Shown here piece by piece: positions 328 through 64,000 of a stretch of DNA of 64,000 nt. The stretch lies in NCBI RefSeq assembly GCF_017565705.1, contig NZ_JAGDYL010000007.1:1-64000 (forward strand), written 5' to 3'. The stretch is from Leucobacter ruminantium (GTDB lineage: Bacteria > Actinomycetota > Actinomycetes > Actinomycetales > Microbacteriaceae). The notes under the pieces were generated by a model that saw only the letters and a list, made by a program, of their open reading frames with translations, did no database searches and was not told the DNA's origin. The first letter of the stretch is position 1. Every line of letters begins with the position of its first letter. A program made the translations under genes and the position numbers.

Positions 328-1113
328 GTGACCGATCAGCAGCCGCAGTCCTCTGACGCCTCCTCCGGGGCGCAGGACGAGCGGAACCGCCCGCAGGCGC
401 CGGGAATCGCGCCGCAACAAGCATCGCGCTACCTACCGCCCGGGGTTGTTCCGCCGCCCGCCGCACAGCCACCGTACGCGGCGCCCCAGCCGCCCTATGC
501 GCCGGCCCGGTCACCGCACGCGGGAGCACAGCCCCCGGCCACACCCGCCTACCCCCAGCCCGCCCCCGTTTACGCCCCCTACTCGGCGGACCGGCCGCAG
601 TACGGCCGGACGCCGACCACGCCGGCCTACCCCCAATACGCCGTCGCTCAGCCGCAATACGCCCCATACGGCTCCCCGGTTCAGCCGCCCTACCCCGGCT
701 ACCGGCTCCCCTCGGGCCGCAAGTTCTGGGCGCTTGGCTTCCTCTACTTCATCCCGTATCTCGGCTGGCTCGTCGCACCGATCGTGGCGCTGACGCTCAA
801 CGCGGGGGCCAGGCGGGATCCCTCGCCCCTGGTGCGCGAGAACGCACGATGGGCGGCGAACTGGAGCCTCACCGTGCTCATCGCGGGGGTAGTGGCCTTC
901 ATCACGATCCTCGGCTCGGCGATGGCGGGAGCCGCCACCGACGAGGCGGGCGGGAACGGCGATGTGTGGTTCCCCGTCGCGATGGTGGGGCTGCTCTTCC
1001 TGGGTATCGTCTGGCTCGCGCAGCTCGTCATCTGCATCATCGGAACCGTGCAGGCCGACCGCAGGGTGTTCGACCCGGTGGTGGTGTTCAGCTTCTTCCG
1101 TCGGGTGGATTGA
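328..1113 (+). CDS. DUF4870-like membrane protein with proline-rich cytoplasmic tail
   Basis: The protein has 261 aa. Residues 1-130 are low-complexity, rich in Pro, Gln, Tyr and Ala (PPYAAPQPPYAPA-like repeats). Residues 131-261 contain about three hydrophobic segments: FWALGFLYFIPYLGWLVAPI, SLTVLIAGVVAFITILG and WFPVAMVGLLFLGIVWLAQLVI. They end in 'ADRRVFDPVVVFSFF', resembling DUF4870 (Tic20-like small membrane proteins). The start is GTG at 328; no strong ribosome-binding site is visible. A compact hairpin follows the stop. Function is unknown; the tail suggests a protein-protein interaction role (inference). Confidence 0.7.
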   Translation: MTDQQPQSSDASSGAQDERNRPQAPGIAPQQASRYLPPGVVPPPAAQPPYAAPQPPYAPARSPHAGAQPPATPAYPQPAPVYAPYSADRPQYGRTPTTPAYPQYAVAQPQYAPYGSPVQPPYPGYRLPSGRKFWALGFLYFIPYLGWLVAPIVALTLNAGARRDPSPLVRENARWAANWSLTVLIAGVVAFITILGSAMAGAATDEAGGNGDVWFPVAMVGLLFLGIVWLAQLVICIIGTVQADRRVFDPVVVFSFFRRVD

Positions 1114-1134
1114 GAACAATCCAAGGGGTTGTTC
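1114..1134 (+). terminator. intrinsic terminator after the DUF4870 gene
   Basis: A 9-bp stem (GAACAATCC / GGGTTGTTC, one G-T pair) closes on an AAG loop directly after the stop codon. It is followed by TTTGG, so the T-run is only modest. Confidence 0.55.
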
Positions 1135-1349
1135 TTTGGCGGTTCTGCACAACGGATGCTCGCGGTGCCTCCGCCCCCGATTGTGGGGTAGGGATCCCTC
1201 GCTGGCCCGCCGCGCGAGCCGGTCGTAGCCTGAGAGGTACACGCGGGGACGTCGGCGCTCGCAGGCGCTCCGCGAGGCGCGCGTCAGCGACGCGCAGCAC
1301 ACCAGCGACCAGGGGGAGTCGTGAGCGACTCCGCATCGAAGGAGCATCG

Positions 1350-3467
1350 ATGAGTGACCACACCGCCCGCACCCAGCCCCGTATCGACATCGCCGAGGTC
1401 GGGGACGCGCTGCTCGGACGATGGAAGCAGGAGCGCCTCGAATCGCGTGCGCTCGCAGCCGACCCGCGTCTCCACACTCCGCAGGGCACCCCGATGTCCG
1501 AGCACCGGGAGCGAGTGTTCGAGCAGCTCCGTATCCTGGTCGAGGAGAACGCGATCCAGCGCGCCTACCCCGGCGACCTCGGCGGCGGAGACAACCACGG
1601 AGGCAACATCGCGGCGTTCCAAGAGCTGGTGCTCGCCGATCCCTCGCTCCAGATCAAGAGCGGCGTGCAGTGGGGCCTCTTCGGTGCGGCGATCCTGCAC
1701 CTCGGCACGCGGGCGCACCACGAGAAGTGGCTGCCCGACGTGATGGATCTGAAGCTGCCCGGAGCGTTCGCGATGACCGAGATCGGGCACGGCTCCGACG
1801 TCGCGTCCATCGGCACGACCGCGACCTACGATCCCGAGACCGAGGAGTTCGAGATCCACACCCCGTTCGCGGGCGCGTGGAAGGAGTTCCTCGGCAACGC
1901 CGCCCTGCACGGCCGCGCCGCCGTCGTCTTCGCGCAGCTGATCACCCGCGGCGTGAACCACGGCGTGCACGCCTTCTTCGTGCCGATCCGCGACGCCGAC
2001 GGAGAGATGATGCCCGGCGTCGGCAGCGAGGACGACGGAGTGAAGGGCGGGCTCAACGGCATCGACAACGGTCGGCTGCATTTCGACCGCGTCAGGATCC
2101 CTCGCGAGAATCTGCTCAACCGCTACGGCGATGTGGCGCCCGACGGCACCTACTCCTCGGCGATCGAGAGCCCGGGCCGTCGCTTCTTCACGATGATCGG
2201 CACGCTCGTGCAGGGGCGCGTCTCGCTCGACGGCTCCTCGGTGCGCGCGATGCAGGCGGCCCTCGCGATCGCGATCCGCTACGGAAGTGAGCGGAGGCAG
2301 TTCCCCGGAGCCTCGGGGCGGGAGACCGTGCTGCTCGACTACGGACAGCACCGCCGCCGCCTCATCCCGCGGCTCGCTCAGACCTACGCCATGGCCTTCG
2401 CCGACGAGCGGCTGCTCACCGTCTTCGATGAGGTCTTCTCGGGCGCGCGCGACACCGAGGAGAACCGCGAGGATCTCGAGACCCTCGCGGCTGCGCTCAA
2501 GCCGCTCTCCACCTGGGCGGCGCTCGACACCCTGCAGGAGGCGCGCGAAGCGTGCGGCGGCGCCGGATTCATCGCGAAGAACCGGCTCACTGGCCTCCGA
2601 GCAGACCTCGACATCTACGCGACCTTCGAGGGCGACAACAACGTGCTGCTGCAGCTCGTCGGCAAGCGGCTGCTCACCGACTACGCCGACCAGTTCAAGC
2701 CGGGCGACCGCGCCGCGATCGCGAAGGCGGCCGCGGCGCAGCTGGGCGATCGGGTGAGCCGCTTCGGCCTGCGCCAGATGGGACAGAGCATCGCCGATCT
2801 CGGCCAGGTGGCGCGCTCGGTCGAGAGCCTGCGCAGCACCGAGGCCCAACGCGAACTGCTCACCGACCGAGTGCAGACGATGATCTCGGAGATCGCGCTC
2901 GCGCTGCGCGAGGCGACCAAGAACGTGCCCAAGGGCGACAGGCTCGCCAAGGCGATCGCCGCGGAGGACGCGTTCAACGCCCAGCAGCACAAGCTCATCG
3001 AGGCGGCGCGCGCGCACGCCGAACTGCTGCAGTGGGAGGCCTTCACCGAGGCCGTCGAAAAGCTCGAGGGCGAGGGATCGCGCCAGGTGCTCACCTGGCT
3101 GCGCGACCTGTTCGGGCTCGGATTGATCGAGCGCAACGCCGCCTGGTATCTCACCTCCGGACGCATCTCGGGACAGCGCGCGGAGGCTGTCACCGCCTAC
3201 ATCGACCGCCTCATCGGACGGCTGCGGCCCCACGCTCTCGACCTCGTCGACGCGTTCGGGCTCACGCCCGCGCTACTGCGCGCCGAGATCGCGACCGGTA
3301 TCGAGGCCGAGCGGCAGCAGGAGGCGCACGACTACGTCGAGGCGCAGCGCGCGGCCGGCACCTGGCCGGTGCACGAGAAGGAGCTGCGGGCGCGCGCGAA
3401 GGCCGAGGCGAAGGCGGCGTCCAGGGTCGAGGCCCGGGCGGGTGCGAAGGTCGGAGCCAGATCGTAG
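1350..3467 (+). CDS. acyl-CoA oxidase / acyl-CoA dehydrogenase family flavoprotein
   Basis: The protein has 705 aa, the length of the peroxisomal-type acyl-CoA oxidase branch rather than the ~380 aa of ordinary acyl-CoA dehydrogenases. It carries the flavin/substrate motif 'GAFAMTEIGHGSDVASIGTTA', a mid-domain with FFVPIRD, and the C-terminal 'ATFEGDNNVLLQLVGKRLL' typical of ACOX proteins. It probably catalyses the first FAD-dependent alpha,beta-dehydrogenation in fatty-acid beta-oxidation. ATG 1350 is preceded by GAAGGAG; the frame is open further upstream but that stretch reads as spacer. The C-terminus (residues ~675-705) is a Lys/Ala/Arg-rich tail. Whether oxygen or ETF is the electron acceptor cannot be told. 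Confidence 0.85.
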   Translation: MSDHTARTQPRIDIAEVGDALLGRWKQERLESRALAADPRLHTPQGTPMSEHRERVFEQLRILVEENAIQRAYPGDLGGGDNHGGNIAAFQELVLADPSLQIKSGVQWGLFGAAILHLGTRAHHEKWLPDVMDLKLPGAFAMTEIGHGSDVASIGTTATYDPETEEFEIHTPFAGAWKEFLGNAALHGRAAVVFAQLITRGVNHGVHAFFVPIRDADGEMMPGVGSEDDGVKGGLNGIDNGRLHFDRVRIPRENLLNRYGDVAPDGTYSSAIESPGRRFFTMIGTLVQGRVSLDGSSVRAMQAALAIAIRYGSERRQFPGASGRETVLLDYGQHRRRLIPRLAQTYAMAFADERLLTVFDEVFSGARDTEENREDLETLAAALKPLSTWAALDTLQEAREACGGAGFIAKNRLTGLRADLDIYATFEGDNNVLLQLVGKRLLTDYADQFKPGDRAAIAKAAAAQLGDRVSRFGLRQMGQSIADLGQVARSVESLRSTEAQRELLTDRVQTMISEIALALREATKNVPKGDRLAKAIAAEDAFNAQQHKLIEAARAHAELLQWEAFTEAVEKLEGEGSRQVLTWLRDLFGLGLIERNAAWYLTSGRISGQRAEAVTAYIDRLIGRLRPHALDLVDAFGLTPALLRAEIATGIEAERQQEAHDYVEAQRAAGTWPVHEKELRARAKAEAKAASRVEARAGAKVGARS

Positions 3468-3550: not shown

Positions 3551-4522
3551 ATGGCTGAACTGCGCACACTCTACCCGCCGATCGAGCCGTACGCGTTCGG
3601 GCGGTTGCCTGTCGGCGATGATCAGCAGATCTTCTGGGAGACCTGCGGAAATCCCGACGGCAAGCCCGTCGTCTTCCTGCACGGCGGTCCGGGAGGCGGC
3701 TGCGGCCCCGACCACCGCCGCTACTTCGACCCCGAACGCTACCGCATCGTGCTGTTCGACCAGCGCGGCTGCGGTCGCAGCACACCGCACGCGAGCGACC
3801 CTCATGCCGATCTGTCGACGAACACCACCTGGCACCTCGTCGCCGATATCGAGCGGATCCGCGAGCACCTCGGCATCGAGCAGTGGCAGGTATTCGGCGG
3901 CTCGTGGGGCTCGACGCTCGCCCTGGCCTACGCTCAGAACCACCCCGAGCGCGTCACCGAGATCGTGCTGCGCGGCATCTTCACGCTGCGGAGCAGCGAG
4001 ATCCACTGGTTCTATCAGGAGGGGGCCTCGCAGCTCTTCCCCGATGCCTGGGAGGACTACCTCTCGGTGATCCCAGCCGATGAACGCGACGACCTCGTCG
4101 CGGCCTACCACCGCCGCCTCTTCGACCCCGATCCGGCGGTGCACACTCCCGCGGGCGTCGAGTGGACCGTGTGGGAGAACACGACGATCCGGCTCATCCC
4201 CGATGAGGCCGCCATCGAGGCGGCGCGGGCCGACGAGGCCGCCGCCGTCGCATTCGCGCGCATTGAGAACCACTACTTCTCGAACGGCGGATGGATGGAG
4301 GATGGCCAGCTGATCCGCGACGCGGCGCAGAAGCTGCGAGGGATCCCGGGAGTCATCGTGCAGGGCCGCTACGACACCTGCACTCCGCCGCGCACGGCCT
4401 GGGACCTGCACCGCGCGTGGCCCGACGCGGACTTCGAGCTGATCCCCGACGCGGGGCACGCGGCGAGCGAGCCGGGCATCGTCGATGCGCTCGTGCGCGC
4501 GACCGACCGCTTCGCGGGATAG
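3551..4522 (+). CDS. pip: proline iminopeptidase (peptidase S33)
   Basis: The 323-aa alpha/beta-hydrolase matches the Pip family in length. The oxyanion-hole motif HGGPGGG is at residues 44-50. The nucleophile elbow GGSWGS has Ser118, and the rest of the triad is Asp275 (GRYDTCTPP) and His303 (DAGHAASEPG). The enzyme releases N-terminal proline from peptides in the cytoplasm. ATG 3551 lacks an obvious ribosome-binding site, but TACGAT ends exactly 6 nt upstream, suggesting a leaderless transcript. It stands alone between the oxidase gene and a palindromic repeat. Confidence 0.92.
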   Translation: MAELRTLYPPIEPYAFGRLPVGDDQQIFWETCGNPDGKPVVFLHGGPGGGCGPDHRRYFDPERYRIVLFDQRGCGRSTPHASDPHADLSTNTTWHLVADIERIREHLGIEQWQVFGGSWGSTLALAYAQNHPERVTEIVLRGIFTLRSSEIHWFYQEGASQLFPDAWEDYLSVIPADERDDLVAAYHRRLFDPDPAVHTPAGVEWTVWENTTIRLIPDEAAIEAARADEAAAVAFARIENHYFSNGGWMEDGQLIRDAAQKLRGIPGVIVQGRYDTCTPPRTAWDLHRAWPDADFELIPDAGHAASEPGIVDALVRATDRFAG

Positions 4523-4528
4523 GGAGCG

Positions 4529-4576
4529 TATCGACTCGCAGGTCCGCTGGTCGGGCGAGGCGAAGCCGAGTCGATA
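4529..4576. repeat. palindromic intergenic repeat, possible terminator of pip
   Basis: Inverted arms TATCGACTCG (4529-4538) and CGAGTCGATA (4567-4576) flank GGTCGGGCGAGGCGAAGCC. It starts 6 bp after the pip stop codon and belongs to the window's dispersed GACTCG/GAGTCG palindrome family. Confidence 0.6.
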
Positions 4577-4802
4577 TGTGGGGGTCTCGGGTTCGATTCG
4601 TGGTATTGCACCGCAGCCCCAACGTTCTTCGGGTGGAATCTCGAATTTTCTGCGATGGTTCGCGCGACGCGGTGCGATTTGCTTCGGTGCTCTCCTCTCC
4701 GCGTCATGGCGTCCCGCCAATCCGGTCTCAGTACCTGAAGGGGATTTCTCTGCGCGTTGCGCGGCGAGTCTCCAGGCAGAGTTCTGAGAGAGGTGGAAGT
4801 CA

Positions 4803-7800
4803 GTGGAGAGTCCGATCCGCAGAAGGAACGGTTTCACGGGAGCGAAGCGGTGCGCGGCGGTCGTGGTGGCCATGGCGCTCGCCGTCGGTCTCGGACCGAC
4901 TGCAGCATGGGCGGCTCCGGAGCCGCCGGGCGACGGGGGAGCCCAGGAAACCCCGGCGGAGGTGCCGGGGGACGCCGCTGAAAGCGGTGCCGGGGAGACG
5001 CCGACTGAGACGGCCGCCGAGCCAGCAGAGGGTCTCGCACCGACTCCGCTCGAGGCGCCGGTACCCGCACCGTTCGCGGGCGATGAGGCATCCCTCTCGC
5101 TCACGATCACTCAGAGCACCGGCACCGAGCCGTTCCAGCTCGACAACGGCCCCGGGCATGATTCGGGCCCGGATAACAACATCGTGCGCACGAACGATAC
5201 GGTCACCTACAACCTCGGTATCCGCTACGAGGGCGACGACCAGACCGCACCGACGGTAAAGTTCGAGCTGCCGCGCGGCCAGGAACTGCTGCAGCTGCCG
5301 CCGTTCTGCCTCGCGGGCAGCTCGGTCGACCCGGCGACGCTGCCCGCACCGACCGCTCCGCTGACGGCGACTTCTTGGGAGGCGCTCCCGCGCCAGACGG
5401 TCACCTGCGTGCTCAAGGACGAGAACATGGGCACCGCGCTGAACTACGCCTTCATCGCACAGGTGCGATCCGAGGTGCCGAACGGCACCGTCATGGACGA
5501 GGTGACCTTCAGCGTGACCTCGGAGCAGGTCGCGGAACCCGCGACGATCGCACCGGAACAGGTGACGGTCTCGGCTGCCGCGGACTACGATCTGTCGAAG
5601 CGCATCGACTCTACCGACCCGAACAAGGGCTGGACCTGGCAGAACAACACCGCCTGCCCGGCTCCGAACTCCGGCGAAGCCTGCCAGAACGTGATCTACC
5701 CGCTCACCGTGACGCTGCCCGCGGGCGGCAAGGGGGCCACCCCGCTCATCGGAGACATCAGCTTCATTGAGAATCTCGATCCCGAGTCCTTCTACGGGGC
5801 GGACGTGTGGGCGCAGATGGTCGCCGCGGCCGGCTCGGTCGCAGATGCGAAGGCGAAGTACGGGCCGCAGTACCGCAGCTGGACGAGGATCACCTCCGGC
5901 AACGGCAGTCGGTCGAGCCTCCCGTACGGCGGCCTCTCGCTCGGCGACTACACCACGCCAGAGAATTCCGTGCGGGAGAGCGGCACGATCAACGCTTCAG
6001 GTACGGGACGCGGCGAGCCGACCACGATCACCATCTCGGGCATGGACACCACGGGAATCACCGTCCCCTCGACCACAGGAAACGGCAACGCGCTGCCGGC
6101 CAACCTCGGTTTCGTGGCTTCCTTCGAGCTCAGCATCGCCGTCCCCCAAGCGGCCGTGATCGAATTCGGGGGTGAGGAGAGCGGAGGATCCTTCGCCATC
6201 GAGACGCACAACGAGTTCACCGACTTCACGGCGACGGCACTCGACGGCACCCCGGTGACGGAGAGCGAGGAGAACCTCGCGAACAACGAGCGCGACCTCA
6301 CCATTCGCGTGGAACGCGGTGCCGGGGTGAACAAGGGCTTCGCCGGTATCCCGGGAGTGGACGGCAACACGCCTCCGCAGCAGTTCATGCCGGCCGATGC
6401 CGTGGCACTCCCCGGGCCGCCCGGTTCGGGGGTCTGGAAGGACGGCAATACGGTCGTGATGCCCGGCCAGGCCGTCTACTCCGTGCTCATGTCGCAGTAC
6501 TCCGGGCCCGACATGACCGGTGCGACGAATACGGTCGTGGCCTGCGATGTCTGGGACGCCGACCGTCTCTCGCTCGCGGCCCACCCCGATTGGAACGGCA
6601 AGAGCGAGGCGAGCTATCCGGGGAACAACCGCCCGGTCTTCCCCGTGCTCGTGCGATCCAACAACCTTGACAGGCCCGCGTCGCAGATCGGGGAGCCGCA
6701 GAGCGGCGTGCAGAGCCTCAAGGTCGAGTACAGCTCCGGGCCCGCCGGCCCCGGTGCCCAGTCGGACTGCTCGAGCGGCACCTGGTCGGAGAACCCCGGT
6801 GACATCGCGAATCCCACGGTCGACGCGCAGGGGCGCACCGTCTGGGACGGTGTCAACCGCGTCAGGGTCACCTGGGTGGCGAGCCACCCGGCGAACACGC
6901 TCATCGGCACGGTCTATCTGCGCATGGCGATCGGGCAGGTCGTGAAGGACTCGGACTCCACAGCTCCGATCGGCAACTGGGCTTCGCAGGCGAACACCGC
7001 CGGCACCAAGACGGCGGAGCAGGTGTTCGCCGACCCCGCGAAACGGACACTGATGCCGAGCTACAACCCGGCGACGCACCAGGGAACTCAGGGCGACCGC
7101 CTGTGGCAGGGCGATGCCCGGGTTCGCGTGCACAAGCTGGTCGAGAACCCCGGCACCGGCGAGTTCGTCGATGCCGCGGTGCCGCAGTACACCTCGGGGA
7201 ACTCGATCCGCTACCGTCTCGACCCCTCGCTCACGGGCGATGTGACCGTCGATGGCACGAAGCAGCGGGTCACGATCGAGGACTGCCTGCCGCGCTATCA
7301 GGTGTTCGAGTCCGCGATGCAGGGCGCCGGCGCACTCGCTCCTCAGACGGTGCAGATGGGTGCACCCGCGGGTGCCGAGATCACCTGCGATGCGAGTCGT
7401 CAGTACCTGAAGTGGGATCTGGGCGAACTCGCGGTCGGCGCTCCGATCGAGCCGATCGTGGTGACCGCGGAGATCCTCGACGTGGCGCGCAACGGCGTGT
7501 TCACGAACGACGTCGTGATCGCCTCGCCCGCCGACAGCTCACCGGTGTCGGTGCGTTCCGATCATCGGCAGATGCAGCTCGTCGTGCCGACGGGGCTGAA
7601 GATCTCGAAGACCGTCGATCCCGGCGTGATCGAGGTCAACCCGGACGGCGTCACGAACCCTCGCACGCTCAAGTGGAGCGTCTACTTCGCGAACATCGAC
7701 GGGCCGCCGAACGTCGCGAACGTCGACGTGATCGACGTGCTGCCGGCCGACGGCCTGAACAGCAACGTGTACACGGGCAGCCTGCGCTTCGAGTCGGCTG

Positions 7801-9404
7801 CTCCCGTCGCCGGAGACAACATCACGGTGCTCTACACGAAGACCGCTGCGGCGGCTCTGAACTCGGACCCGAGCGACGCGAGCAACGCCGCGGACGGCAG
7901 CACCGTGTGGTGCGACGCGCCGTCGGGTGGCGCCGTCGTCAGTGGCGCCGGTGATGCGGCGGTGGACTGCCCGCAGTCGAACGAGGAGGTGACGGGCCTG
8001 CGCTTCCAGCGCCCCGGTCAGTTCAACCCGGACGACGAGTTCCAGGTCGACATCCTGATGACTCCGGTCGGCAACCACTCGGGCGACGTCTACCGGAACA
8101 TCACCTCGGGCCGCGCCGACGGCGTGAGCCAGGGAGTCGGACCGGCCAGGCGTGACGCGACCGTGATCGCCTCCCAGATCGGCGACTTCGTGTGGAACGA
8201 CCTCAACGGCAACGGAGTCCAAGACGCCGGCGAGCCGGGCATCGCCGGCGTCCCGGTGAGGCTGACCGGCACCGATGTCGACGGGAACGCGGTGTCGCTT
8301 CAGACGACCACCGACGCGAACGGGAAATACCTGTTCGCCGAGCTCGCCTCGGGCGACTACCGGGTGACCTTCGACATCTCCGGACTGGCCGGGTACGTGT
8401 TCACCCAGAAGGGCGCCGGCAGCGACCCCGCCCTCGACTCGAACGCCGACCCTGCGACGGGCGAGGCCGAGGTGACGCTCGGGAAGGACACGCAGGATCT
8501 CACGATCGACGCGGGCGTCGTGCAGCGCTTCGGCGGGCTCATCATCAACAAGCAGCTCGAGGGCGTCGGCGTCAAGGACATCGCCGCCCAAGACGAGCTC
8601 GTGTTCAACGTGGTCTGCACTCTGGGAGGTGCCACCGTCTTCGAGCAGGACGTCACCCTCGCGGTCAACGGTCGGACCGCGGTCACCTCGGGCGAACTCG
8701 CCCCGATCCCAGCCGGCGCCGAGTGCGTCGTCACGGAGACCGGCGCGGGTCATTCGGATCCCGATTCGTTGCCGGATCCCGTCACGGTGACGATCCCGTG
8801 GAACCCCACCACCGGTGAATCGGGGACGGTCACGGCTTCGCTGACGAACTACTACTCGGCGGGCCGGCTCCAGCTGAAGAAGGTGCTTGAGGGCGATGCG
8901 ACCCGCCTGGCTCAGGTGAAGGACACGCAGTTCGAGTTCCTCATCACCTGCCAGGTGGAGGAGCAGAACGACTCGGGCGAGACCGTTCGCGCCGATGTCG
9001 TTTCGGGAACCTGGAAGCTGAGGGGCGGCGAGACGATCATCCTGGGATCGGACGACCGGACTCCGCTCACCATCCCCGCTGGAGCGCACTGCTTCGGTCA
9101 GGAGACCGACAACGGCGGCGCGACCAGCGCTACGATCAGCAGCGACTCGTTCGAGAACGCCGTGGTGGTGGAGGGTGGCAAGCCCGATGAACTGCAGACG
9201 CTCGCGATCACCGCGGTGAACACCTTCACCTGTGCGAACGGGGCCTGCGGGCCCGGCACCCCGGGCAAGCCCGGGACGCCCGGCGGGCTCTCCCTCACCG
9301 GTGGTTCCTTCGCCGCCGCAGCCGTCGCGGGCATCGCACTGCTCGCGGCCGGCATGCTGCTCCTCGCCCGACGGCGCCGGGGCGCCGACGCAGCGGCCGA
9401 GTAG
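4803..9404 (+). CDS. large cell-wall-anchored surface protein A (DUF11/SdrD-B-like plus DUF5979-like domains)
   Basis: The 1533-aa exported protein starts with a signal peptide (basic residues ~6-16, hydrophobic VVVAMALAVGL, cleavage near AWAAPE). A Pro/Glu/Thr-rich linker follows, then a long beta-rich stalk beginning around 'DNNIVRTNDTVTYNLGIRY' (DUF11-like). An SdrD B-like domain lies at ~1124-1243 (IGDFVWNDLNGNGVQDAGEPG), and two DUF5979-like domains begin near 1244 (GGLIINKQLEG) and 1354 (GRLQLKKVLEG). The C-terminus has LSLTG at 1496-1500, a hydrophobic helix and RRRR, a sortase sorting signal deviating from LPxTG/LAxTG. GTG 4803 is the start. It is paralogous to the protein at 42871-48168. 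An adhesive or surface-display role is inferred; no sortase gene is in the window. Confidence 0.85.
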   Translation: MESPIRRRNGFTGAKRCAAVVVAMALAVGLGPTAAWAAPEPPGDGGAQETPAEVPGDAAESGAGETPTETAAEPAEGLAPTPLEAPVPAPFAGDEASLSLTITQSTGTEPFQLDNGPGHDSGPDNNIVRTNDTVTYNLGIRYEGDDQTAPTVKFELPRGQELLQLPPFCLAGSSVDPATLPAPTAPLTATSWEALPRQTVTCVLKDENMGTALNYAFIAQVRSEVPNGTVMDEVTFSVTSEQVAEPATIAPEQVTVSAAADYDLSKRIDSTDPNKGWTWQNNTACPAPNSGEACQNVIYPLTVTLPAGGKGATPLIGDISFIENLDPESFYGADVWAQMVAAAGSVADAKAKYGPQYRSWTRITSGNGSRSSLPYGGLSLGDYTTPENSVRESGTINASGTGRGEPTTITISGMDTTGITVPSTTGNGNALPANLGFVASFELSIAVPQAAVIEFGGEESGGSFAIETHNEFTDFTATALDGTPVTESEENLANNERDLTIRVERGAGVNKGFAGIPGVDGNTPPQQFMPADAVALPGPPGSGVWKDGNTVVMPGQAVYSVLMSQYSGPDMTGATNTVVACDVWDADRLSLAAHPDWNGKSEASYPGNNRPVFPVLVRSNNLDRPASQIGEPQSGVQSLKVEYSSGPAGPGAQSDCSSGTWSENPGDIANPTVDAQGRTVWDGVNRVRVTWVASHPANTLIGTVYLRMAIGQVVKDSDSTAPIGNWASQANTAGTKTAEQVFADPAKRTLMPSYNPATHQGTQGDRLWQGDARVRVHKLVENPGTGEFVDAAVPQYTSGNSIRYRLDPSLTGDVTVDGTKQRVTIEDCLPRYQVFESAMQGAGALAPQTVQMGAPAGAEITCDASRQYLKWDLGELAVGAPIEPIVVTAEILDVARNGVFTNDVVIASPADSSPVSVRSDHRQMQLVVPTGLKISKTVDPGVIEVNPDGVTNPRTLKWSVYFANIDGPPNVANVDVIDVLPADGLNSNVYTGSLRFESAAPVAGDNITVLYTKTAAAALNSDPSDASNAADGSTVWCDAPSGGAVVSGAGDAAVDCPQSNEEVTGLRFQRPGQFNPDDEFQVDILMTPVGNHSGDVYRNITSGRADGVSQGVGPARRDATVIASQIGDFVWNDLNGNGVQDAGEPGIAGVPVRLTGTDVDGNAVSLQTTTDANGKYLFAELASGDYRVTFDISGLAGYVFTQKGAGSDPALDSNADPATGEAEVTLGKDTQDLTIDAGVVQRFGGLIINKQLEGVGVKDIAAQDELVFNVVCTLGGATVFEQDVTLAVNGRTAVTSGELAPIPAGAECVVTETGAGHSDPDSLPDPVTVTIPWNPTTGESGTVTASLTNYYSAGRLQLKKVLEGDATRLAQVKDTQFEFLITCQVEEQNDSGETVRADVVSGTWKLRGGETIILGSDDRTPLTIPAGAHCFGQETDNGGATSATISSDSFENAVVVEGGKPDELQTLAITAVNTFTCANGACGPGTPGKPGTPGGLSLTGGSFAAAAVAGIALLAAGMLLLARRRRGADAAAE

Positions 9405-9419
9405 CTCCCGGCACCAGTC

Positions 9420-9456
9420 GAGGGGCCGGTCATCGAATCTCGATGGCCGGCCCCTC
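9420..9456. terminator. hairpin terminator after surface protein A
   Basis: Arms of 17 bp (GAGGGGCCGGTCATCGA / TCGATGGCCGGCCCCTC) have one mismatch and a 3-nt loop. It starts 16 bp after the stop codon and is followed by a T-poor CGTCGTCG stretch, as usual in high-GC hosts. Confidence 0.8.
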
Positions 9457-9643
9457 TCGTCGTCGTAAGGAGCACACGGCAGACGTCAAGTTTTTCTCTC
9501 GGACGGCGTCATATTCGGTGCGCATCGGTGTCCAGGTAGATGAGGGGAGATCCCCTCGGACTCGTCGGCCGACTTTCCCAGCACCCCGGCGGCGAGCAGA
9601 CGGACTCGGCATCTTTCCCCCTACTCCATGCCCGGTCCGTCAC

Positions 9644-9677
9644 CGTGATGGCGGCGGCCCCCGCCGCCGCCATCACG
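9644..9677. terminator. hairpin terminator after the sigma-factor gene (minus strand)
   Basis: Perfect 14-bp arms (CGTGATGGCGGCGG / CCGCCGCCATCACG) with a 6-nt loop end 5 bp beyond the stop codon of the minus-strand sigma-factor gene. With the hairpin at 9420-9456 it insulates two convergent genes. Confidence 0.7.
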
Positions 9678-9681
9678 ACTC

Positions 9682-10656
9682 TCATGGTCGACTCGGCCCT
9701 CGCACCACCGGTTCCTCCTGCGGAAGCGTCTCCCACGGGCCGGGGTCGACGGGGATGGCCGACTCGCCCGTAGTCGCATGACCAGAGGAACCACGGTCGC
9801 CGTTGCGCGACTCCGTCTCTTCTTCTTCGCGATCGTCGGGTCGGCTCTCCCGCCCGCCCTCAGCGGCGGCAACCGCTTCCGAATGCGTCGGAGGGCCGGG
9901 AGCAGACGAAGGTGCGTCGGAGCTCAGGAGTGCGACCAGCACGACCGCCGCGGTGAGGGAGGCGGCGGAGCCGACGAGGAGCGCAGTCTTATGGGAGGCG
10001 ACCGAGCCCGCTCCCTGCGTCGCAGCTGCGGCGGACGAACCCCGGTCGACGAGGGGGAACAGGCAGCTCGCCGTCGACGCTCCGAGCACCACCACCAGGA
10101 TCGCGCGTCCGAGAGCGCCCTCGCCACCGTCGACGATGCTGCGGAAGCGCTTCCGCGCACGGTGTCGGATCTGCGAGACATTGTTGGCCGAGAGCCCGAG
10201 CAGCTCTGCGGTCTCGCGCGGGGTGAAACCCTCGACCTCGGTGTACCAGAGCACCGCCTGCCAACGCTCCGGGAGTGCGGTCAGCGCCTCGGCGACGATG
10301 CTCTGGTCGGCGAGTATGTCGGCCAGATCGTCGAGAGAGCGCGGGTGCACCAGGTCGACGTCATCGATCGACGTCTCGTTGCGCGCGGCGGTGACACTCG
10401 ACATGTCTATCGAGACGTTCCGTATGACCTGGTAGAGGTACGGGCGGAACGCCTCACGAGGCCCCGCCCCGTTCTCGATCGTCTGCAAGATCCTGGTGAA
10501 CGCCTCGGAGATGATGTCGTCTCGATCGATGCGCGGAGCTATACGGTAGGCTGCGGCGCGCGCCGCGTCGAGGTGCCGACGGTAGAGCTCGCCGTAGGCG
10601 GTTCGGTCGTGCCTCTCGCGCACAGCAGCGATCAGGGCCCTGTCGCTCGTATTCAA
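9682..10656 (-). CDS. ECF-like sigma factor with C-terminal membrane segments
   Basis: The protein has 324 aa. Residues ~5-90 form sigma region 2 (RRHLDAARAAAYR, DIISEAFTRILQTI) and ~125-180 region 4 (LPERWQAVLWYTEVEGFTPRETAELLGLS with an HTH). Two hydrophobic segments follow (~190-210 and ~233-250), then an acidic, presumably extracellular, tail. Unlike its paralogue at 41466-42779 it has no HxxxCxxC zinc finger. TTG 10656 is chosen because GAAGGGG lies 6 nt upstream and a candidate -10 (TATACT, 10715-10710) would place the transcript start inside any longer reading frame; TTG 10710 is the alternative. It converges on surface protein A. Membrane tethering suggests regulation by release or proteolysis (inference). 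Confidence 0.8.
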   Translation of the reverse strand: MNTSDRALIAAVRERHDRTAYGELYRRHLDAARAAAYRIAPRIDRDDIISEAFTRILQTIENGAGPREAFRPYLYQVIRNVSIDMSSVTAARNETSIDDVDLVHPRSLDDLADILADQSIVAEALTALPERWQAVLWYTEVEGFTPRETAELLGLSANNVSQIRHRARKRFRSIVDGGEGALGRAILVVVLGASTASCLFPLVDRGSSAAAATQGAGSVASHKTALLVGSAASLTAAVVLVALLSSDAPSSAPGPPTHSEAVAAAEGGRESRPDDREEEETESRNGDRGSSGHATTGESAIPVDPGPWETLPQEEPVVRGPSRP

Positions 10657-10709
10657 TTTCGCCCCTTCGAGTACCGTGCATCCCTGCCAGCGCTCTTTCC
10701 CCCGCTGCA

Positions 10710-10759
10710 AGTATAGGCAAGAAGGTGGACATGCCCCTCGGCCTCGGGCGCACTAGTAT
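10710..10759. promoter_or_regulatory. divergent promoter region, sigma factor / YpfJ-type peptidase
   Basis: Candidate -10 hexamers are TATACT on the minus strand (10715-10710, toward the sigma factor) and TAGTAT on the plus strand (10754-10759, toward the metallopeptidase). No convincing -35 boxes are seen. Confidence 0.4.
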
Positions 10760-10833
10760 CGACTTCACCGGATAGCGCGCGATCGGCACGGTTGCCGTGC
10801 GGATCGCCATGCACGAGGAAAGGCGCGGCCACC

Positions 10834-11724
10834 TTGACCTTCAACGACAACGTGCGCATCGATACGAGCAAGGTTTCGAAGCGGCGCGGGGGCGCGCGCG
10901 GCGGAATGATCGCGGGCGGGGGTGCGGGTATCGCGCTGCTGCTCTTCCTCGGCTCTCAGCTGCTCGGCATCGATCTCACGCCCTACGCCCCCGTCGTGGA
11001 GCAGGCGCTCGGCAGCGGCCCCGTCTCGGAGGAACAGGCGGGATCCCTCGAGGGCTGCGCCACCGGCGCCGACGCCAATACTGACGCCGAGTGCCGTATG
11101 GCCGCGACGAGCGACTCGCTCGACCGCTATTGGGCCTCGCAGGTCGGCAACTACCGCGGCCCGTCCGACGTCGTGCTCTACGACGGCCAGACGCAGTCTG
11201 CCTGCGGCACCGCCTCCGGGGCCACGGGTCCCTTCTACTGCCCGGCCGACGAGGCGATCTACCTCGACGTCGCATTCTTCGACACGCTCAGCAGCGACTA
11301 CGGCGCGTCCGACGGATCGCTCGCCCAGATGTATGTGCTCGCCCATGAGTGGGGGCACCACATCTCGAACCTCATCGGCTCGTTGCAGGGCGTGGGACGC
11401 GAGACCGGCCCGGCATCTGGGTCGGTGCGACTCGAGCTGCAGGCCGACTGCTTCGCCGGTGCGTGGGTGCGCGACGCCTCGACCGTGACCGACGACAGCG
11501 GCGTTCCGTTTCTGAAGCCCGTCACGAAGCAGGAGATCGCCGACGCCATGAGCGCCGCAGCTGCCGTCGGCGACGACCACATCATGGAATCGGCCGGCGT
11601 CGGCGTGAATCCCGAGCGGTTCACGCACGGCACGTCGGAGCAGCGGCAGCGCTGGTTCCAGACGGGATACCAGCAGGGGCCGACCGCCTGCGGCACCTTC
11701 GACGTTCCGGCCGCTCAGCTGTAG
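10834..11724 (+). CDS. neutral zinc metallopeptidase, YpfJ family
   Basis: The protein has 296 aa. One N-terminal transmembrane helix (~residues 25-42, IAGGGAGIALLLFLGSQLLGI) precedes an extracytoplasmic domain. The zinc site is HEWGHH, with a downstream 'ELQADCFAGAW' supplying the third ligand region; this pattern defines the YpfJ/putative neutral zinc metallopeptidase family. It ends with 'QRQRWFQTGYQQG', also typical. TTG 10834 is preferred over an in-frame ATG at 10792 because GAGGAAAGG sits 10 nt upstream. Substrate is unknown. The gene stands alone and meets a convergent gene 10 bp after its stop. Confidence 0.85.
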   Translation: MTFNDNVRIDTSKVSKRRGGARGGMIAGGGAGIALLLFLGSQLLGIDLTPYAPVVEQALGSGPVSEEQAGSLEGCATGADANTDAECRMAATSDSLDRYWASQVGNYRGPSDVVLYDGQTQSACGTASGATGPFYCPADEAIYLDVAFFDTLSSDYGASDGSLAQMYVLAHEWGHHISNLIGSLQGVGRETGPASGSVRLELQADCFAGAWVRDASTVTDDSGVPFLKPVTKQEIADAMSAAAAVGDDHIMESAGVGVNPERFTHGTSEQRQRWFQTGYQQGPTACGTFDVPAAQL

Positions 11725-20107: not shown

Positions 20108-20275
20108 GAATGCCCCTTTGCATGGTCCGCGGTCGAAAGCTCTTCAGCACAGTACCGGAGATCGGGGGCGAACCTCGAACCGGGCCTCGGGCGGGCGCGG
20201 GTCGGTACCGGGGTACGACGCCCGGGGCACCGGGGTCCGATCCCTCGCCCCTCATCGGTCCGTAGCGTCGATGAC

Positions 20276-23696: not shown

Positions 23697-23775
23697 GCGC
23701 CCCAGCGTACCCCCGGGCTCCGACACTCGGAAGCGAGGGATCCTACCGAGCGACGCGCTCCGTAAGAACGCGAAA

Positions 23776-23830: not shown

Positions 23831-23855
23831 GGCGCCGTTCAGCGACGGCGAGGGA

Positions 23856-53368: not shown

Positions 53369-53430
53369 GCGGTGTTCTTTCGTTCGGTGTCTGAGAAGTC
53401 TGCGAGGGATCGGCGCCGACGGATGTGCGC

Positions 53431-54510: not shown

Positions 54511-54551
54511 GGGAGGGATCCTCTTTTCTTTCCTTGACGAGCGCTGCAGCA

Positions 54552-55528: not shown

Positions 55529-55558
55529 GGTCGAGCGAGGGATCCCGCCCGCTCGACC
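55529..55558. repeat. palindromic repeat between pstS and pstC
   Basis: GGTCGAGCG (55529-55537) and CGCTCGACC (55550-55558) flank a loop containing GAGGGATCCC. It is a copy of the dispersed intergenic palindrome with the over-represented octamer at its centre, and a possible partial terminator after pstS. Confidence 0.65.
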
Positions 55559-56777: not shown

Positions 56778-56860
56778 GTCGACCGACGCATCGGCACCGA
56801 TCCCTGGGCGAGGCGAGGGATCGACATCGGCGAGGGATCCGCCCGGGTAGACTCCTGGAC

Positions 56861-59167: not shown

Positions 59168-61287
59168 CGCGACCGCCTCGCGCGCGCCTCCGTGCGGTCG
59201 GTCATCACGAGATCCTGCAGGTCGGGGAGGGGCTCGCCGTTCTCGCCGACCGTGCGGCGCTCCCACGAGCCGTCGGGCAGCATGCGCCACGAGGAGACGT
59301 CGTCGCTGAAGCAGAAGCCGAAGAAGCGGTCGATGCGGGCGAGGTGCTCGCGTTCGACGATGCGCGCCAGCACCTCGATGCGGCGGTCGAGGTTGCGGTG
59401 CATGAGGTCGGCGCTGCCGATGAAGACCTCGGGTTCGCCGCCGCCCGCGAAGGCGTAGATGCGCGAGTGCTCCAGGTAGCGGCCCAGCACCGAGCGCACC
59501 CGGATGTTCTCGGAGAGCCCGGGCACGCCCGCCCGGATCGAGCAGATGCCGCGTATCCAGATGTCGATCGGCACGCCCGCCTGGCTCGCGCGGTAGAGGG
59601 CGTCGATGATCTGCTCGTCGACCATCGAGTTGGCCTTGAGTCTGATGCCGCTCGGCCTGCCCGCTCGCGCGTGCTCGGCCTCGCGCTCGATGCGTTCGAG
59701 CAGCCCGCGGCGCAGGCCCTCCGGGGCCACCAGCAGCCGGTCGTAGTTCGTCTCGATCGCGTAGCCCGAGAGCACGTTGAAGAGCTTGGTCACGTCGCGG
59801 CCCACCTCGGGCGACGAGGTGAAGAGACCGAAGTCCTCGTAGATGCGGCTCGTCTTCGGGTTGTAGTTGCCGGTGCCGATGTGGCAGTAGTGGGCGAGCT
59901 TGCCCTGCTCCTCGCGGATCACGTGCACGAGCTTGCAGTGCGTCTTGAGGCCGACGAGGCCGTAGACGACGTGCACGCCCGCCTGCTCGAGCTTGCGGGC
60001 CCAGGTGATGTTCGCCTCCTCGTCGAAGCGGGCCTTGATCTCGACGAGAGCGAGCACCTGCTTGCCGGCCTCGGCCGCCTTGATGAGGGAGGCGACGATG
60101 GGGCTGTCGCCCGAGGTGCGGTAGAGGGTCTGCTTGATGGCGAGCACGTCGGGGTCGGTGGCGGCCTGCTCCACGAAGGCCTGCACGCTCGTCGCGAACG
60201 ACTCGTAGGGGTGGTGCACGAGCACCTCGCGCCGGGCGATCGCGCCCAGCACGTCGGGCTTGTCGCTCGAGGAGCTCGAGCGGAACTGGGGGGCCGTCAC
60301 CGGGATGTGCGGCTTGAACCGGAGATCCGGACGGCGCAGGCCGGAGAGCGCGAAGAGTCCGCTGAGGTCGAGCGGGGAGGGCAGCGTGTAGACCTGCTGC
60401 TCGTCGATGTCGAACTCGCTCACGAGCAGTTCGAGCGTCGCCTCGTCCATGTCGTCGGAGATCTCGAGGCGGATCGGGGGCCCGAAGCGGCGGCGCAGCA
60501 GCTCCTTCTCGAGCGCCTGGATGAGGTTCTCGGTCTCGTCCTCCTCGATCTCCATGTCCTCGTTGCGTGTGACGCGGAACACGTGGTGGTCGATGACCTC
60601 CATGCCCGGGAAGAGCCCGTCGAGCTGATTCGCGATGAGCACCTCGAGCGGGATGAACCGCACATCGTCGAGCGCCTCACGGCGGTCCACGCGCACGTAG
60701 CGAGGGATCATCTGCGGCACCTTGAGGCGTGCGAACTCGACCTTGTCGGTCCGCGGGTTGCGCACGCGGATGGAGAGGTTCAGCGCGCGGCCGGAGATGT
60801 AGGGGAAGGGGTGGGCCGGGTCGACCGCGAGCGGCATGAGCACGGGGTAGATGTGCTGCTCGTAGTACTCGGTGAGCACGGCGCGGTCGGCGTCGTCGAG
60901 CTGATCCCATTCGACGATGCGCACGCCGGCGGACGCGAGCGCGGGCTTCACGTCCTCCGCGAAGCAGCGCGCGTGCCGCAGCTGCAGCTCGTAGGCCTTT
61001 GCGTTGATGCCGGCGAGCACGTCGACGGGGGCGCGGCCCACATTGGTCGGAACGGCGAGGCCGGTGACGATGCGCCGCTTCAGGCCGGCGACGCGCACCA
61101 TGAAGAATTCGTCGAGGTTGGAGGCGAAGATGGCGAGGAAGTTCGCGCGCTCGAGCAGCGGGACCGTCGGATCCTCGGCGAGTTCGAGCACCCGCTGGTT
61201 GAACGCGAGCCAGCTGAGTTCGCGGTCGATGTAGCGGTCCGCGGGGAGTTCGATCTCGCCGGTCGGTTCGCTCGTGTCGTCGTTCAT
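59164..61287 (-). CDS. ppk: polyphosphate kinase 1
   Basis: The 707-aa protein has the four PPK1 domains: N-domain 'DRELSWLAFNQRVLELAED', head domain, and C1/C2 catalytic domains with 'LYRTSGDSPIVASLIKAAEAGKQVLALVEIKARFDEEANI'. The autophosphorylated His is in 'GLKTHCKLVHVIREE', and 'HIGTGNYNPKTSRIYEDFGLFT' is present. It makes polyphosphate from ATP. ATG 61287 has CAGAAT ending 6 nt upstream. Downstream is the coupled NUDIX/phosphatase gene; mshD and glnR precede it. Confidence 0.96.
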   Translation of the reverse strand: MNDDTSEPTGEIELPADRYIDRELSWLAFNQRVLELAEDPTVPLLERANFLAIFASNLDEFFMVRVAGLKRRIVTGLAVPTNVGRAPVDVLAGINAKAYELQLRHARCFAEDVKPALASAGVRIVEWDQLDDADRAVLTEYYEQHIYPVLMPLAVDPAHPFPYISGRALNLSIRVRNPRTDKVEFARLKVPQMIPRYVRVDRREALDDVRFIPLEVLIANQLDGLFPGMEVIDHHVFRVTRNEDMEIEEDETENLIQALEKELLRRRFGPPIRLEISDDMDEATLELLVSEFDIDEQQVYTLPSPLDLSGLFALSGLRRPDLRFKPHIPVTAPQFRSSSSSDKPDVLGAIARREVLVHHPYESFATSVQAFVEQAATDPDVLAIKQTLYRTSGDSPIVASLIKAAEAGKQVLALVEIKARFDEEANITWARKLEQAGVHVVYGLVGLKTHCKLVHVIREEQGKLAHYCHIGTGNYNPKTSRIYEDFGLFTSSPEVGRDVTKLFNVLSGYAIETNYDRLLVAPEGLRRGLLERIEREAEHARAGRPSGIRLKANSMVDEQIIDALYRASQAGVPIDIWIRGICSIRAGVPGLSENIRVRSVLGRYLEHSRIYAFAGGGEPEVFIGSADLMHRNLDRRIEVLARIVEREHLARIDRFFGFCFSDDVSSWRMLPDGSWERRTVGENGEPLPDLQDLVMTDRTEARARRSR

Positions 61288-61349: not shown

Positions 61350-62273
61350 TCAGCGCCGCCACTGCCGGCTGCGGGAGTCGATCGTGAAGCCGGCGCGCTC
61401 GTACATGCCGACGGCGACCTCGTTCTCGCCGTCGACGTAGAGCTCGACCTTCGCCGGACGGTGCTGCGCCATCCGCGCGAGCGTCGCTTCGAGCAGCGCG
61501 CGGCCGAGGCCGTGCCCCGAGCGCGCGGGATCGACCCCGATGGCGTAGAGCTCGGCGATGGGGGCGGATCCCTCGCCCGGAACGGTCTTGACCCAGGTGT
61601 AGCCCGCGACTCCCTCCGCGTCCTCGATGAAGAGCAGATCGGCCGGATCGAACCAGGGCTCCTCGCGCATCAGGGCGAAGTCGGCCTCGGTGATGCGCCC
61701 CTGCTCGGGGTGCGAGGCGAACGCGGCGGCGTTGAGCCGCACCCAGTCCGCCGCGTCCTCGGGCAGCTCGGGGTCGAAGGCGCGCAGCGCGAAGCCGGTG
61801 GGCATGGGGAGGGCGAGGGGATCGGATGATGGATCGGGCAGCCGCGAGGGATCGAGGGCCATGCGGTAGAGGGATCGCACCGGCTCGAACCCCGCGCGCG
61901 CGAGGAGCGCGTCGGCCGCGGGGTTGTCGCCGTGCGCCCAGGCCTTCAGCTCGCCGGGGGCCGCACGGTCGAGCAGCACGTCGAGGGCGGCTGAGCCGAT
62001 CCCTCTCCCGCGTGCCGAGGGATCGACGACGAGGTCGACCTCTCCCTCGCCGACGATGCCGACGGCGACGGTGCGCTCCGGGTCCGCCGCCTCGGCGAAG
62101 CGCCGCAGTGCGCGTCGGCCCTGCGAGGCCGCGAGCAGCGCCTGATCCGACACCGGGGGCCGGCCGTCTGCGCTCTCCGCGGCCGCGATCACCGCTCGCG
62201 CGTCGGCGAGCGCCCGGGTTCCCGGCTCTCCTGAGCTTCCCGGATCGATCTCGATGAGCTCGGCCTCGGTCAT
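61350..62273 (-). CDS. mshD: mycothiol synthase
   Basis: The 307-aa protein has two GNAT domains. The first has 'DLVVDPSARGRGIGSAALDVLLDRA' and the second 'LYAIGVDPARSGHGLGRALLEATL', ending 'VELYVDGENEVAVGMYERAGFTI'. This is the MshD pattern; it acetylates Cys-GlcN-Ins in the last step of mycothiol synthesis. ATG 62273 follows GGAGGACGACC. The order glnR-mshD resembles mycobacterial Rv0818-Rv0819 beside phosphate genes. Confidence 0.93.
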   Translation of the reverse strand: MTEAELIEIDPGSSGEPGTRALADARAVIAAAESADGRPPVSDQALLAASQGRRALRRFAEAADPERTVAVGIVGEGEVDLVVDPSARGRGIGSAALDVLLDRAAPGELKAWAHGDNPAADALLARAGFEPVRSLYRMALDPSRLPDPSSDPLALPMPTGFALRAFDPELPEDAADWVRLNAAAFASHPEQGRITEADFALMREEPWFDPADLLFIEDAEGVAGYTWVKTVPGEGSAPIAELYAIGVDPARSGHGLGRALLEATLARMAQHRPAKVELYVDGENEVAVGMYERAGFTIDSRSRQWRR

Positions 62274-63096: not shown

Positions 63097-63108
63097 GAGG
63101 GATCCCTC
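63097..63108. repeat. self-complementary copy of the over-represented octamer
   Basis: GAGGGATCCCTC is a perfect 12-bp palindrome formed by overlapping forward (63097) and reverse (63101) copies of GAGGGATC. It lies in the glnR/phoH divergent spacer and is the clearest example of the motif on both strands. Confidence 0.8.
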
Positions 63109-63234
63109 GCGGGCACGGGGCGCAACCCCCGCGCAACCGGATGTTCACCGTTCTTCACTCGGATCGGTGTGTGTCGCTTCGACGCATCGAGCGGCGCGAG
63201 CGTAGCGTGAGAGGCACCGGACGAAGGAGACACT

Positions 63235-64000
63235 GTGACCGAGTTCCCGCATTCCGAACCCCTCTCGGCCGAAGCGCACGAGGGCCGTGATCGCTCGACG
63301 GAGCGTCTGCGCACCTATGTGCTCGACACCTCGGTGCTGCTGAGCGATCCCTCGGCGCTCTTCCGCTTCGCCGAGCACGCGGTCGTGCTGCCCATCGTGG
63401 TCGTCATGGAACTCGAGAAGAAACGGCACGACCCCGAGATCGGCTACTTCGCGCGGCGCGCGCTCCGCATCCTCGACGAGCTGCGGGAGCGCCACCTTCG
63501 CCTCGACTTCCCCGTGCCCGTCGGCGACTCCGGCGGCACGGTGCGTGTCGAGCTCAACCACTCGAGCGCCGAGGCGCTGCCGAGCGGCATGCGGCTGGGC
63601 GACAACGACACCCGCATCCTCGCCGTCGCCCAGAGCCTCGCCTCGGACGGCCTCGACGTCACCGTCGTGTCGAAGGACCTCCCCATGCGGCTCAAGGCCG
63701 CGGCGCTCGGGCTCGGCTCCGAGGAGTACCGCGCCGAGCTCGCCCACGACGACGCCTACACCGGAACCGCGACGATCGAGCTCGCCGAGCACGAGATGCA
63801 GTCGCTCTGGGACCAGGAGCGGCTCGACGACGTCGACGACGTCGAGGGGCTGACCCGCGGCACCGGTCTCATCATCACCTCCGCGCGCGGCTCGGCGCTC
63901 GGGCGCGTCGACGGCCCGCGCTCGCTGCACCTCGTGCGCGGCGACCGGGAGGTCTTCGGAGTCACGGGCCGCAGCGCCGAGCAGCGGCTCGCGATCGACC
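63235..64000 (+). CDS. PhoH-family protein with N-terminal PIN domain (runs off right edge)
   Basis: The first 255 codons are visible. A PIN-domain ribonuclease segment covers residues ~25-165: 'YVLDTSVLLSDPSALFRFAEH', 'LPIVVVMELEKKRHD', 'LGDNDTRILAVAQSL' and 'VTVVSKDLPMRLKAAALGL' give the acidic cluster. A linker follows; the PhoH P-loop ATPase would lie beyond the edge. This layout is that of PhoH2 proteins (PIN-PhoH). GTG 63235 follows GAAGGAGACACT. It is divergent from glnR. Confidence 0.85.
   Translation, partial: MTEFPHSEPLSAEAHEGRDRSTERLRTYVLDTSVLLSDPSALFRFAEHAVVLPIVVVMELEKKRHDPEIGYFARRALRILDELRERHLRLDFPVPVGDSGGTVRVELNHSSAEALPSGMRLGDNDTRILAVAQSLASDGLDVTVVSKDLPMRLKAAALGLGSEEYRAELAHDDAYTGTATIELAEHEMQSLWDQERLDDVDDVEGLTRGTGLIITSARGSALGRVDGPRSLHLVRGDREVFGVTGRSAEQRLAID

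Follow-up and report, generated by a model that had tools for sequence, protein, structure and literature searches.

Uptake signals with proven function are known from the Pasteurellaceae and Neisseriaceae (parts of PMC1939737). Chi sites are G-rich, species-specific words on the scale of an octamer, and so is GAGGGATC (reverse complement GATCCCTC), the iterated word that is analyzed here in a 64-kb window (the whole stretch of DNA, from contig C59) of the genome of Leucobacter ruminantium (3,305,448 bp in 69 contigs). Genomes, contigs, and loci are denoted below by G, C, and L numbers. The DNA uptake sequence (DUS) of the Neisseriaceae, according to parts of PMC3630211, is present in about 1,900 copies in 2.2–2.3 Mb, a density close to the one copy per 1,297 bp of GAGGGATC. 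Like GAGGGATC, it is a short asymmetric word that occurs about once per kb at permissive and intergenic sites, and related species differ in it by one or a few letters. The DUS distribution is also atypical in mobile elements, and integrated elements of Neisseria were found in this way (parts of PMC7371117). The uptake signal sequence (USS) of the Pasteurellaceae is likewise a short asymmetric word at high copy number; the model given in sections of PMC1939737 is an accumulation of point mutations, and the same sections describe one-mismatch forms as over-represented in H. influenzae and N. gonorrhoeae. Highly iterated palindrome 1 (HIP1) and the alternate HIPs of cyanobacteria also occur about once per kb, and the word of a single genome may be replaced by another (sections of PMC4390886).

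Highly iterated, lineage-specific words are already known; the literature searches made here returned no asymmetric one in an actinobacterium with a one-letter replacement traced between relatives. The word, with the core AGGGATC, looks as though it works like an uptake signal, but it is not classed as one because its one-mismatch forms are not enriched. It may be a species-specific, DUS-like self tag that was spread by biased uptake or recombination, a reading that has about an even chance. Related words that lie on both strands and favor tolerant sequence point to an evolving sequence-specific reader with drive, and the best-known systems of this kind are uptake signals. Unlike in the Neisseriaceae, the host is a Gram-positive actinobacterium with no evidence of ComP, near-cognates are not enriched, the word of the relatives (CGGGATC) is merely about 2-fold iterated, and a role of the word in uptake is a proposal. 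It differs from the USS in that one-mismatch forms are in excess there and not here, and in the machinery.

Abundance and Placement of the Octamer

Exact matching in the window found 35 copies of GAGGGATC and 26 of GATCCCTC, a total of 61. The original prediction had counted about 34 and 25 by hand, and all 28 of its example positions were correct. Its estimate of an excess of about 25-fold holds against base composition alone (about 2.3 copies expected, by arithmetic), but not against Markov models, which predicted 5.0 (order 1), 5.2 (order 2), and 6.7 (order 3) copies on both strands and hence a 9- to 12-fold excess. Among all octamers of the window, GAGGGATC had the highest order-3 excess. 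It was also the most deviant octamer under the order-3 model in a 414-kb sample of the genome, with 368 copies observed against 43.5 expected, or 27.8 expected when the sites were masked. The pattern read backwards (7 copies) contains the rare CTAG and is thus a poor control, and Markov and relative-based expectations were used instead. The genome-wide count, a check that had been set beforehand, gave 1,282 copies on the forward strand and 1,266 on the reverse strand (2,548 in all), so that the excess is neither local nor near the Markov expectation, and an origin in one duplicated region is excluded. A short non-palindromic word that occurs about once per kb over the whole genome, and is the most over-represented oligomer in the 414-kb sample, has hallmarks of an uptake signal.

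The gene lysS supports the assignment to Leucobacter, since its best-ranked neighbors in a collection of named genomes were mostly from that genus. In raw counts, the 53 other Leucobacter genomes contained 9 to 388 copies of GAGGGATC each. In samples of the family (398 genomes) and of the order (396), which overlap and both include this genome, no other genome exceeded 376 copies, and the maximum among all 813 other genomes of the genus, family, and order was 388. The iteration of GAGGGATC is therefore confined to this species among the genomes compared. Carriage by phages was considered and rejected, since 37 viral contig stretches with CGAGGGATCCCTCG had 2 to 4 copies of GAGGGATC each and none was enriched.

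The placement of the sites was analyzed in 679,597 bp that contained 579 GAGGGATC sites, with genes taken from a codon-based calling made in this analysis. Coding sequence had 0.70 sites per kb and intergenic sequence 1.62 to 2.61, with the peak between convergent genes. A frame-aware second-order model expected 11.9, 1.9, and 1.8 sites in the three frames of the coding strand, where 97, 44, and 58 were observed, and 8.4, 3.8, and 2.1 in those of the opposite strand, where 76, 86, and 48 were observed. GAGGGATC thus exceeded expectation 8- to 32-fold in each of the six frames, and 21-fold in intergenic sequence (170 against 8.2 expected). Enrichment in permissive and intergenic sequence is a further hallmark of uptake signals. 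It is barely credible that the count stems from the usage of codons or dipeptides, or from a family of repeats. The commonest coding frame does read Glu-Gly-Ser (97 of the 409 coding sites), but the excess in every frame and between genes means that neither codons nor dipeptides account for it, and relatives of similar composition have no such excess. A long repeat or a mobile element as the carrier was also rejected, as the flanks of the 579 sites carried little conservation or information beyond the octamer. These counts, together with those of the window and the genome, bear out the original view of a highly iterated motif that is not a gene family.

Both strands were used equally. The ratios of forward to reverse sites were 77/80 on C26, 85/83 on C13, 40/41 on C2, 33/36 on C1, 16/15 on C11, and 35/26 in the window; all seven contigs or contig parts examined (12–168 sites each) were near 1:1, and binomial p-values were 0.31–0.87 for the five with at least 30 sites. 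The absence of replication polarity is in line with an uptake signal and not with the orientation bias of Chi, of the FtsK-orienting polar sequences (KOPS), and of the architecture imparting sequences (AIMS). A Chi-like hotspot recognized by AddAB, RecBCD, or AdnAB is accordingly improbable, and so is a KOPS- or AIMS-like polar guide for DNA translocation, even though GAGGGATC is a very frequent G-rich 8-mer and Chi words differ between species (parts of PMC3630211). The word CGGGATC was also divided between the strands in a one-contig relative, of which 18 spaced samples of 20 kb gave 241/277 (heterogeneity p = 0.067), and strong intergenic enrichment is not expected of such a guide.

The flanks of GAGGGATC were weak, with G, G, and C at positions −3 to −1 in 60, 67, and 63% of the sites and C or G at position +9 in 88% (C 49%, G 39%). 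The (G/C)…(C/G) flanks of the original prediction are therefore only faintly visible at −1, where C precedes 58% of other GAGGG, and stand at +9, where C or G follows 69% of other GGATC. Position 1 was the softest letter: AAGGGATC, CAGGGATC, and TAGGGATC reached 2.1, 3.35, and 8.7 times their frequencies in the relatives. AGGGATC therefore forms the core, and a G before it is strongly preferred.

Neighboring sites within 60 bp numbered 79 against 29 expected, and 30 of these pairs were the self-overlapping palindrome GAGGGATCCCTC. Uptake signals also occur between genes as inverted pairs that act as terminator stems. Here 48 pairs were convergent (including the 30 palindromes), 24 direct, and 7 divergent, and 19 of the 48 convergent pairs lay in coding sequence. 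A chromosome-organizing protein, a nucleoid protein, or a different DNA-binding factor with no part in uptake, for which selection keeps sites about every kb, would fit the density and placement, and a changing protein would also yield dialects. However, the spacing is near random, with an excess of gaps below 30 bp (63 against 17.7 expected) and no regular lattice, and the concentration of sites in variable positions points to drive more than to need. We regard such a protein as a rather unlikely explanation.

The forward sites of the window were located at 3072–3079, 4338–4345, 12167–12174, 12425–12432, 14257–14264, 14981–14988, 18593–18600, 19187–19194, 22726–22733, 23735–23742, 23850–23857, 24760–24767, 25051–25058, 28539–28546, 30802–30809, 32239–32246, 32401–32408, 33734–33741, 33850–33857, 33874–33881, 41045–41052, 42414–42421, 43078–43085, 47299–47306, 51964–51971, 53404–53411, 54513–54520, 55537–55544, 56815–56822, 56832–56839, 60702–60709, 61846–61853, 61869–61876, 62017–62024, and 63097–63104. 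The reverse sites were located at 817–824, 1193–1200, 1638–1645, 2096–2103, 11042–11049, 12356–12363, 14595–14602, 14622–14629, 15961–15968, 16289–16296, 20239–20246, 22859–22866, 26130–26137, 30424–30431, 30816–30823, 33059–33066, 33605–33612, 34682–34689, 37023–37030, 42687–42694, 46622–46629, 46878–46885, 61567–61574, 61998–62005, 63101–63108, and 63346–63353. The sites at 30802 and 30816 form a convergent inverted pair, those at 61998 and 62017 a divergent one, and those at 63097 and 63101 overlap as the palindrome GAGGGATCCCTC. A short near-repeat run of GAGGGATCGGGCGAAGGGTCGGCT at 33850–33900 includes two of the sites and is a low-complexity tail near the end of a gene for a bacterial PH domain protein (32149–33951). 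The largest site-free gap of the window (4338–11042) contains the gene of a 1,533-aa SdrD_B/DUF5979 surface protein (4803–9404).

Origin of the Sites and Related Words

An aligned relative was available for 114 of the 579 sites, and 86 were used after 28 with gaps in the octamer had been set aside. The octamer was identical in the best-aligned relative at only 5 of the 86 sites. Permuted octamers of equal composition served as a control, and 1,292 of their 4,677 gap-free positions were identical (320 gapped of 4,997 were set aside). At the other 81 sites, the octamers of the relatives differed by 1 to 6 letters, with GCGGGATC the commonest (11). The sites therefore arose through substitution in variable places and are lineage-specific gains. 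Insertion of the whole word was considered, since gaps in the octamer affected 28 of 114 sites and 320 of 4,997 controls; by eye these reflected mostly poor alignment, with one clean case (L198:2551), and insertion was rejected. Where the relatives carried CGGGATC, 18 of 171 aligned sites (10.5%) had AGGGATC in L. ruminantium. In a control of 505 7-mers that start with C, the mean C-to-A change was 0.65% and none was as high as 10.5%, so that the rate at CGGGATC was about 16 times the mean. CGGGATC was kept at 27 of the 171 sites (16%), against a control mean of 31%. The C-to-A change at CGGGATC is thus the outstanding single route to GAGGGATC.

CGGGATC itself was moderately iterated elsewhere in the genus. 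Under an order-3 model, observed and expected counts were 310/178 in G053, 144/83 in G005, 125/69 in G049, 94/57 in G032 with G016, 521/253 in G050, 253/124 in ten pooled named Leucobacter loci, and 322/191 in twenty pooled 20-kb samples. The excess was 1.6- to 2.1-fold in most Leucobacter sets, and that of TCGGGATC was 1.9- to 3.2-fold. In four Leucobacter sets, CGGGATC was above expectation in all six frames and in intergenic sequence. Whole-genome counts were 4,353 in G053, 5,811 in G025, 669 in G015, and 168 in G034, compared with 1,855 in L. ruminantium, and 37 of 53 congeners had more copies per Mb (no GC correction). An apparent match of CGGGATC to its background in L. ruminantium (374/378 under a plain model) was withdrawn, as the model was inflated by the GAGGGATC sites; the comparison of individual aligned sites is independent of it. 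CGGGATC is a residue in this genome, weaker than in most relatives. In the simplest reading, it is probably the ancestral word of Leucobacter.

Beyond the genus, GGATGCC reached about 5-fold over expectation in Microbacterium loci (L028–L042, L062, L091; 421 against 83 in 14 pooled loci). Two of the 16 Microbacterium loci were outside the pools, namely L026 with 16 copies and L032 with 7 copies and no excess. In 13 of the 14 loci, intergenic copies numbered 115 against 15.7 expected, and the pairs comprised 23 convergent, 5 direct, and 2 divergent, a pattern that is clearer than for GAGGGATC. Within the Microbacterium genes, the excess of GGATGCC did not extend to every frame (one frame had 1 copy against 1.1 expected). 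GAGGGATC, CGGGATC, and GGATGCC look like dialects of one recognition system, and dialects in related species, though not in every relative (G024), are also a property of uptake signals.

Further words were observed in smaller samples. GGATGCG-like words (CGCATCCG, CGCATCC) were over-represented in single 20-kb samples of other Microbacteriaceae genera (L156 of G404, L163 of G389, L169 of G078, and L159 of G313). In a 20-kb sample of G025 (L147), a longer GATCCGGGCAC-like word was raised (ATCCGGGCA, 15 against 0.5 expected), either as a local repeat or as another dialect. In the Demequina loci L045, L047, and L051, CGATGCCG, CATCGGCC, and GCATCGGC were among the commonest octamers, several-fold above second-order expectation.

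Modification Enzymes, Mobile DNA, and Competence Genes

Enzymes of the MmeI type methylate asymmetric words. The genome of L. ruminantium encodes one such enzyme in addition to a Type I system, and GAGGGATC contains GATC; both observations would suit a HIP1-like process, in which mismatch repair or conversion is biased and tied to a word-recognizing DNA methyltransferase, uptake plays no part, and the abundance is perhaps a by-product. We consider this process unlikely, if somewhat less so than a chromosome-organizing protein. HIPs are palindromes with cognate methyltransferases, whereas GAGGGATC is not palindromic, and the letter that follows it is divided between C and G. The genome gave no match to the D12 (Dam-type) methyltransferases, the sole family that was surveyed genome-wide, although 11 of 54 Leucobacter did. 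The Type I genes are located in a stretch without GAGGGATC (L277), and the MmeI-type gene in a site-poor stretch with a single GAGGGATC site at the start of the gene. In an alignment, the MmeI relative keeps the residues that specify C as the last letter, following the methylated A; this specificity is at odds with GAGGGATC. Furthermore, the gains came from many octamers and positions and not from one type of mismatch. Among the three analogies of the original prediction, the uptake signal fits best, although unproven; Chi is disfavored by the absence of polarity, and HIP1 by the asymmetry of the word and the lack of a D12 match.

Mobile islands contained 10 GAGGGATC sites in 130 kb against 124 expected from the remaining 652 kb, a contrast that is overstated and partly circular because the island bounds were drawn in part from site-free gaps; the gene content of the islands is independent of this. 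With the same reservation about the bounds, the atypically low frequency in mobile elements resembles that of uptake signals. The site-poor islands comprised a region of C11 (integrase, type IV secretion system coupling protein, ParB-like and ArdC-like proteins), a second coupling region of that secretion system on C1, a restriction and second-messenger defense region on C26, and the element in comEC on C15 and C48, to which all of C15:1–28741 was assumed to belong. Two gaps above 6.5 kb, at 4338–11042 of the window and at 70–77 kb of C2, were not scored as islands.

The region of C11 at about 4.8–43 kb (L111, L192, L193) resembles an integrative conjugative element, with an integrase, a coupling protein, a ParB-like protein, an M23 peptidase, and another DprA homologue; 30.5 kb of it is free of GAGGGATC. 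The MmeI-type restriction-modification enzyme is encoded at C26:102837–105497 (L103:2837–5497), in a site-poor defense region of lower GC content that also encodes a helicase and a SMODS-type nucleotidyltransferase.

Transformation of Micrococcus luteus depends on tad genes, and the combination of tad with ComEA/ComEC is described as common among actinobacteria (parts of PMC4322843). L. ruminantium harbored a tad cluster (T2SSE, T2SSF, DUF4244, and TadE matches) and an intact comEA that is followed directly by the N-terminal half of comEC, and 52 of 54 Leucobacter had a ComEC match. A TGA inside the comEC match on C15 falls at the end of comEA, ahead of the point where comEC probably starts. 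The C-terminal match of comEC starts at the same residue in G049, G015, and G026 (L186, L187, and L188; query 572–573) as in this genome (570), which suggests a shared attachment site within comEC, to judge from these alignments. Seven of the 52 ComEC matches (those of this genome, G049, G015, G026, G003, G018, and G028) start at profile position 26–28. A related recombinase lies beside the C-terminal part of comEC in G015 only. The element that separates the two halves of the gene carries, on the C48 side, a serine recombinase gene that adjoins the C-terminal half and a D5-like primase gene, and, on the C15 side (L277/L278), a Type I restriction system, an Mrr nuclease, an Abi_C protein, and a DprA homologue.

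A Proposed Self Tag for DNA Uptake

In the proposed mechanism, a sequence-specific DNA-binding component of a DNA acquisition or recombination path would prefer DNA that bears GAGGGATC; most plausibly it would be part of the transformation machine formed by the Tad pilus and ComEA-ComEC. Copying back into the population would favor point mutations that create the word over those that destroy it, and sites would pile up where they are tolerated, in intergenic sequence and at variable positions of proteins, whatever the frame or strand. The preference of the reader would have shifted by one letter (C to A) in this lineage and become stronger, after which the genome would have been rewritten, with CGGGATC reduced toward background and AGGGATC increased. 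The reader, uptake as the driving step, the ancestral position of CGGGATC, and this order of events are what we infer from the pattern of the words.

Several observations weigh against this mechanism. One-mismatch forms of GAGGGATC reached only 0.91 of the level of the relatives overall, with position 1 alone clearly raised (2- to 9-fold), and in the 414-kb sample they were below the Markov expectation (407 against 561). Gains from single-letter neighbors of AGGGATC other than CGGGATC were few (9 against about 5 expected), and most GAGGGATC sites derive from octamers at least two letters away. Inverted pairs were just mildly favored once the 30 palindromes were excluded, and spacing in the core genome was otherwise about random and not even. 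In G024, a nearer relative, CGGGATC had no clear excess (10 against 8.3 in a 36.5-kb sample), and 16 of the 53 congeners had fewer copies per Mb than L. ruminantium. The old word also persists in this genome, where CGGGATC was still 1.3-fold over expectation (374/287) and TCGGGATC stood at 119/73 with the GAGGGATC sites masked. No reader of GAGGGATC was found. comEC is split by the integrated element, with its N-terminal half on C15 (L278:8742–9593) and its C-terminal half on C48 (L184:9614–11269), and the isolate may be unable to transform at present; the split has no bearing on how the sites accumulated but calls for caution. Searches of the open literature returned no report of an uptake signal or of such an iterated motif in Actinomycetota.

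The missing excess of near-cognates could reflect a recent switch of the word, before decay products had built up. A strong depletion of near-cognates was considered and rejected, as it was mostly due to GCGGGATC, the word of the relatives; without position 1 and GCGGGATC, the remaining one-mismatch forms stood at 0.99 of the level of the relatives.

If uptake is not involved, the word would be a HIP1-like puzzle outside the cyanobacteria, one whose evolutionary record is sharper. More tentatively than for the self tag itself, the Microbacteriaceae, and perhaps other Actinomycetota, may have a family of self-tag words that differ as dialects between lineages (GGATGCC in Microbacterium, CGGGATC in many Leucobacter, GAGGGATC in this species, and perhaps GGATGCG in other genera), all read by one evolving Tad-pilus uptake receptor, and the genome of L. 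ruminantium may have been caught soon after a switch, while a residue of the old word can still be seen. Such a family, if true, would be the first case of uptake signals known to us among Gram-positive bacteria. A search for a candidate reader can set species that have the word against species that lack it, and the one letter by which close relatives differ provides a natural experiment on the origin and change of specificity.

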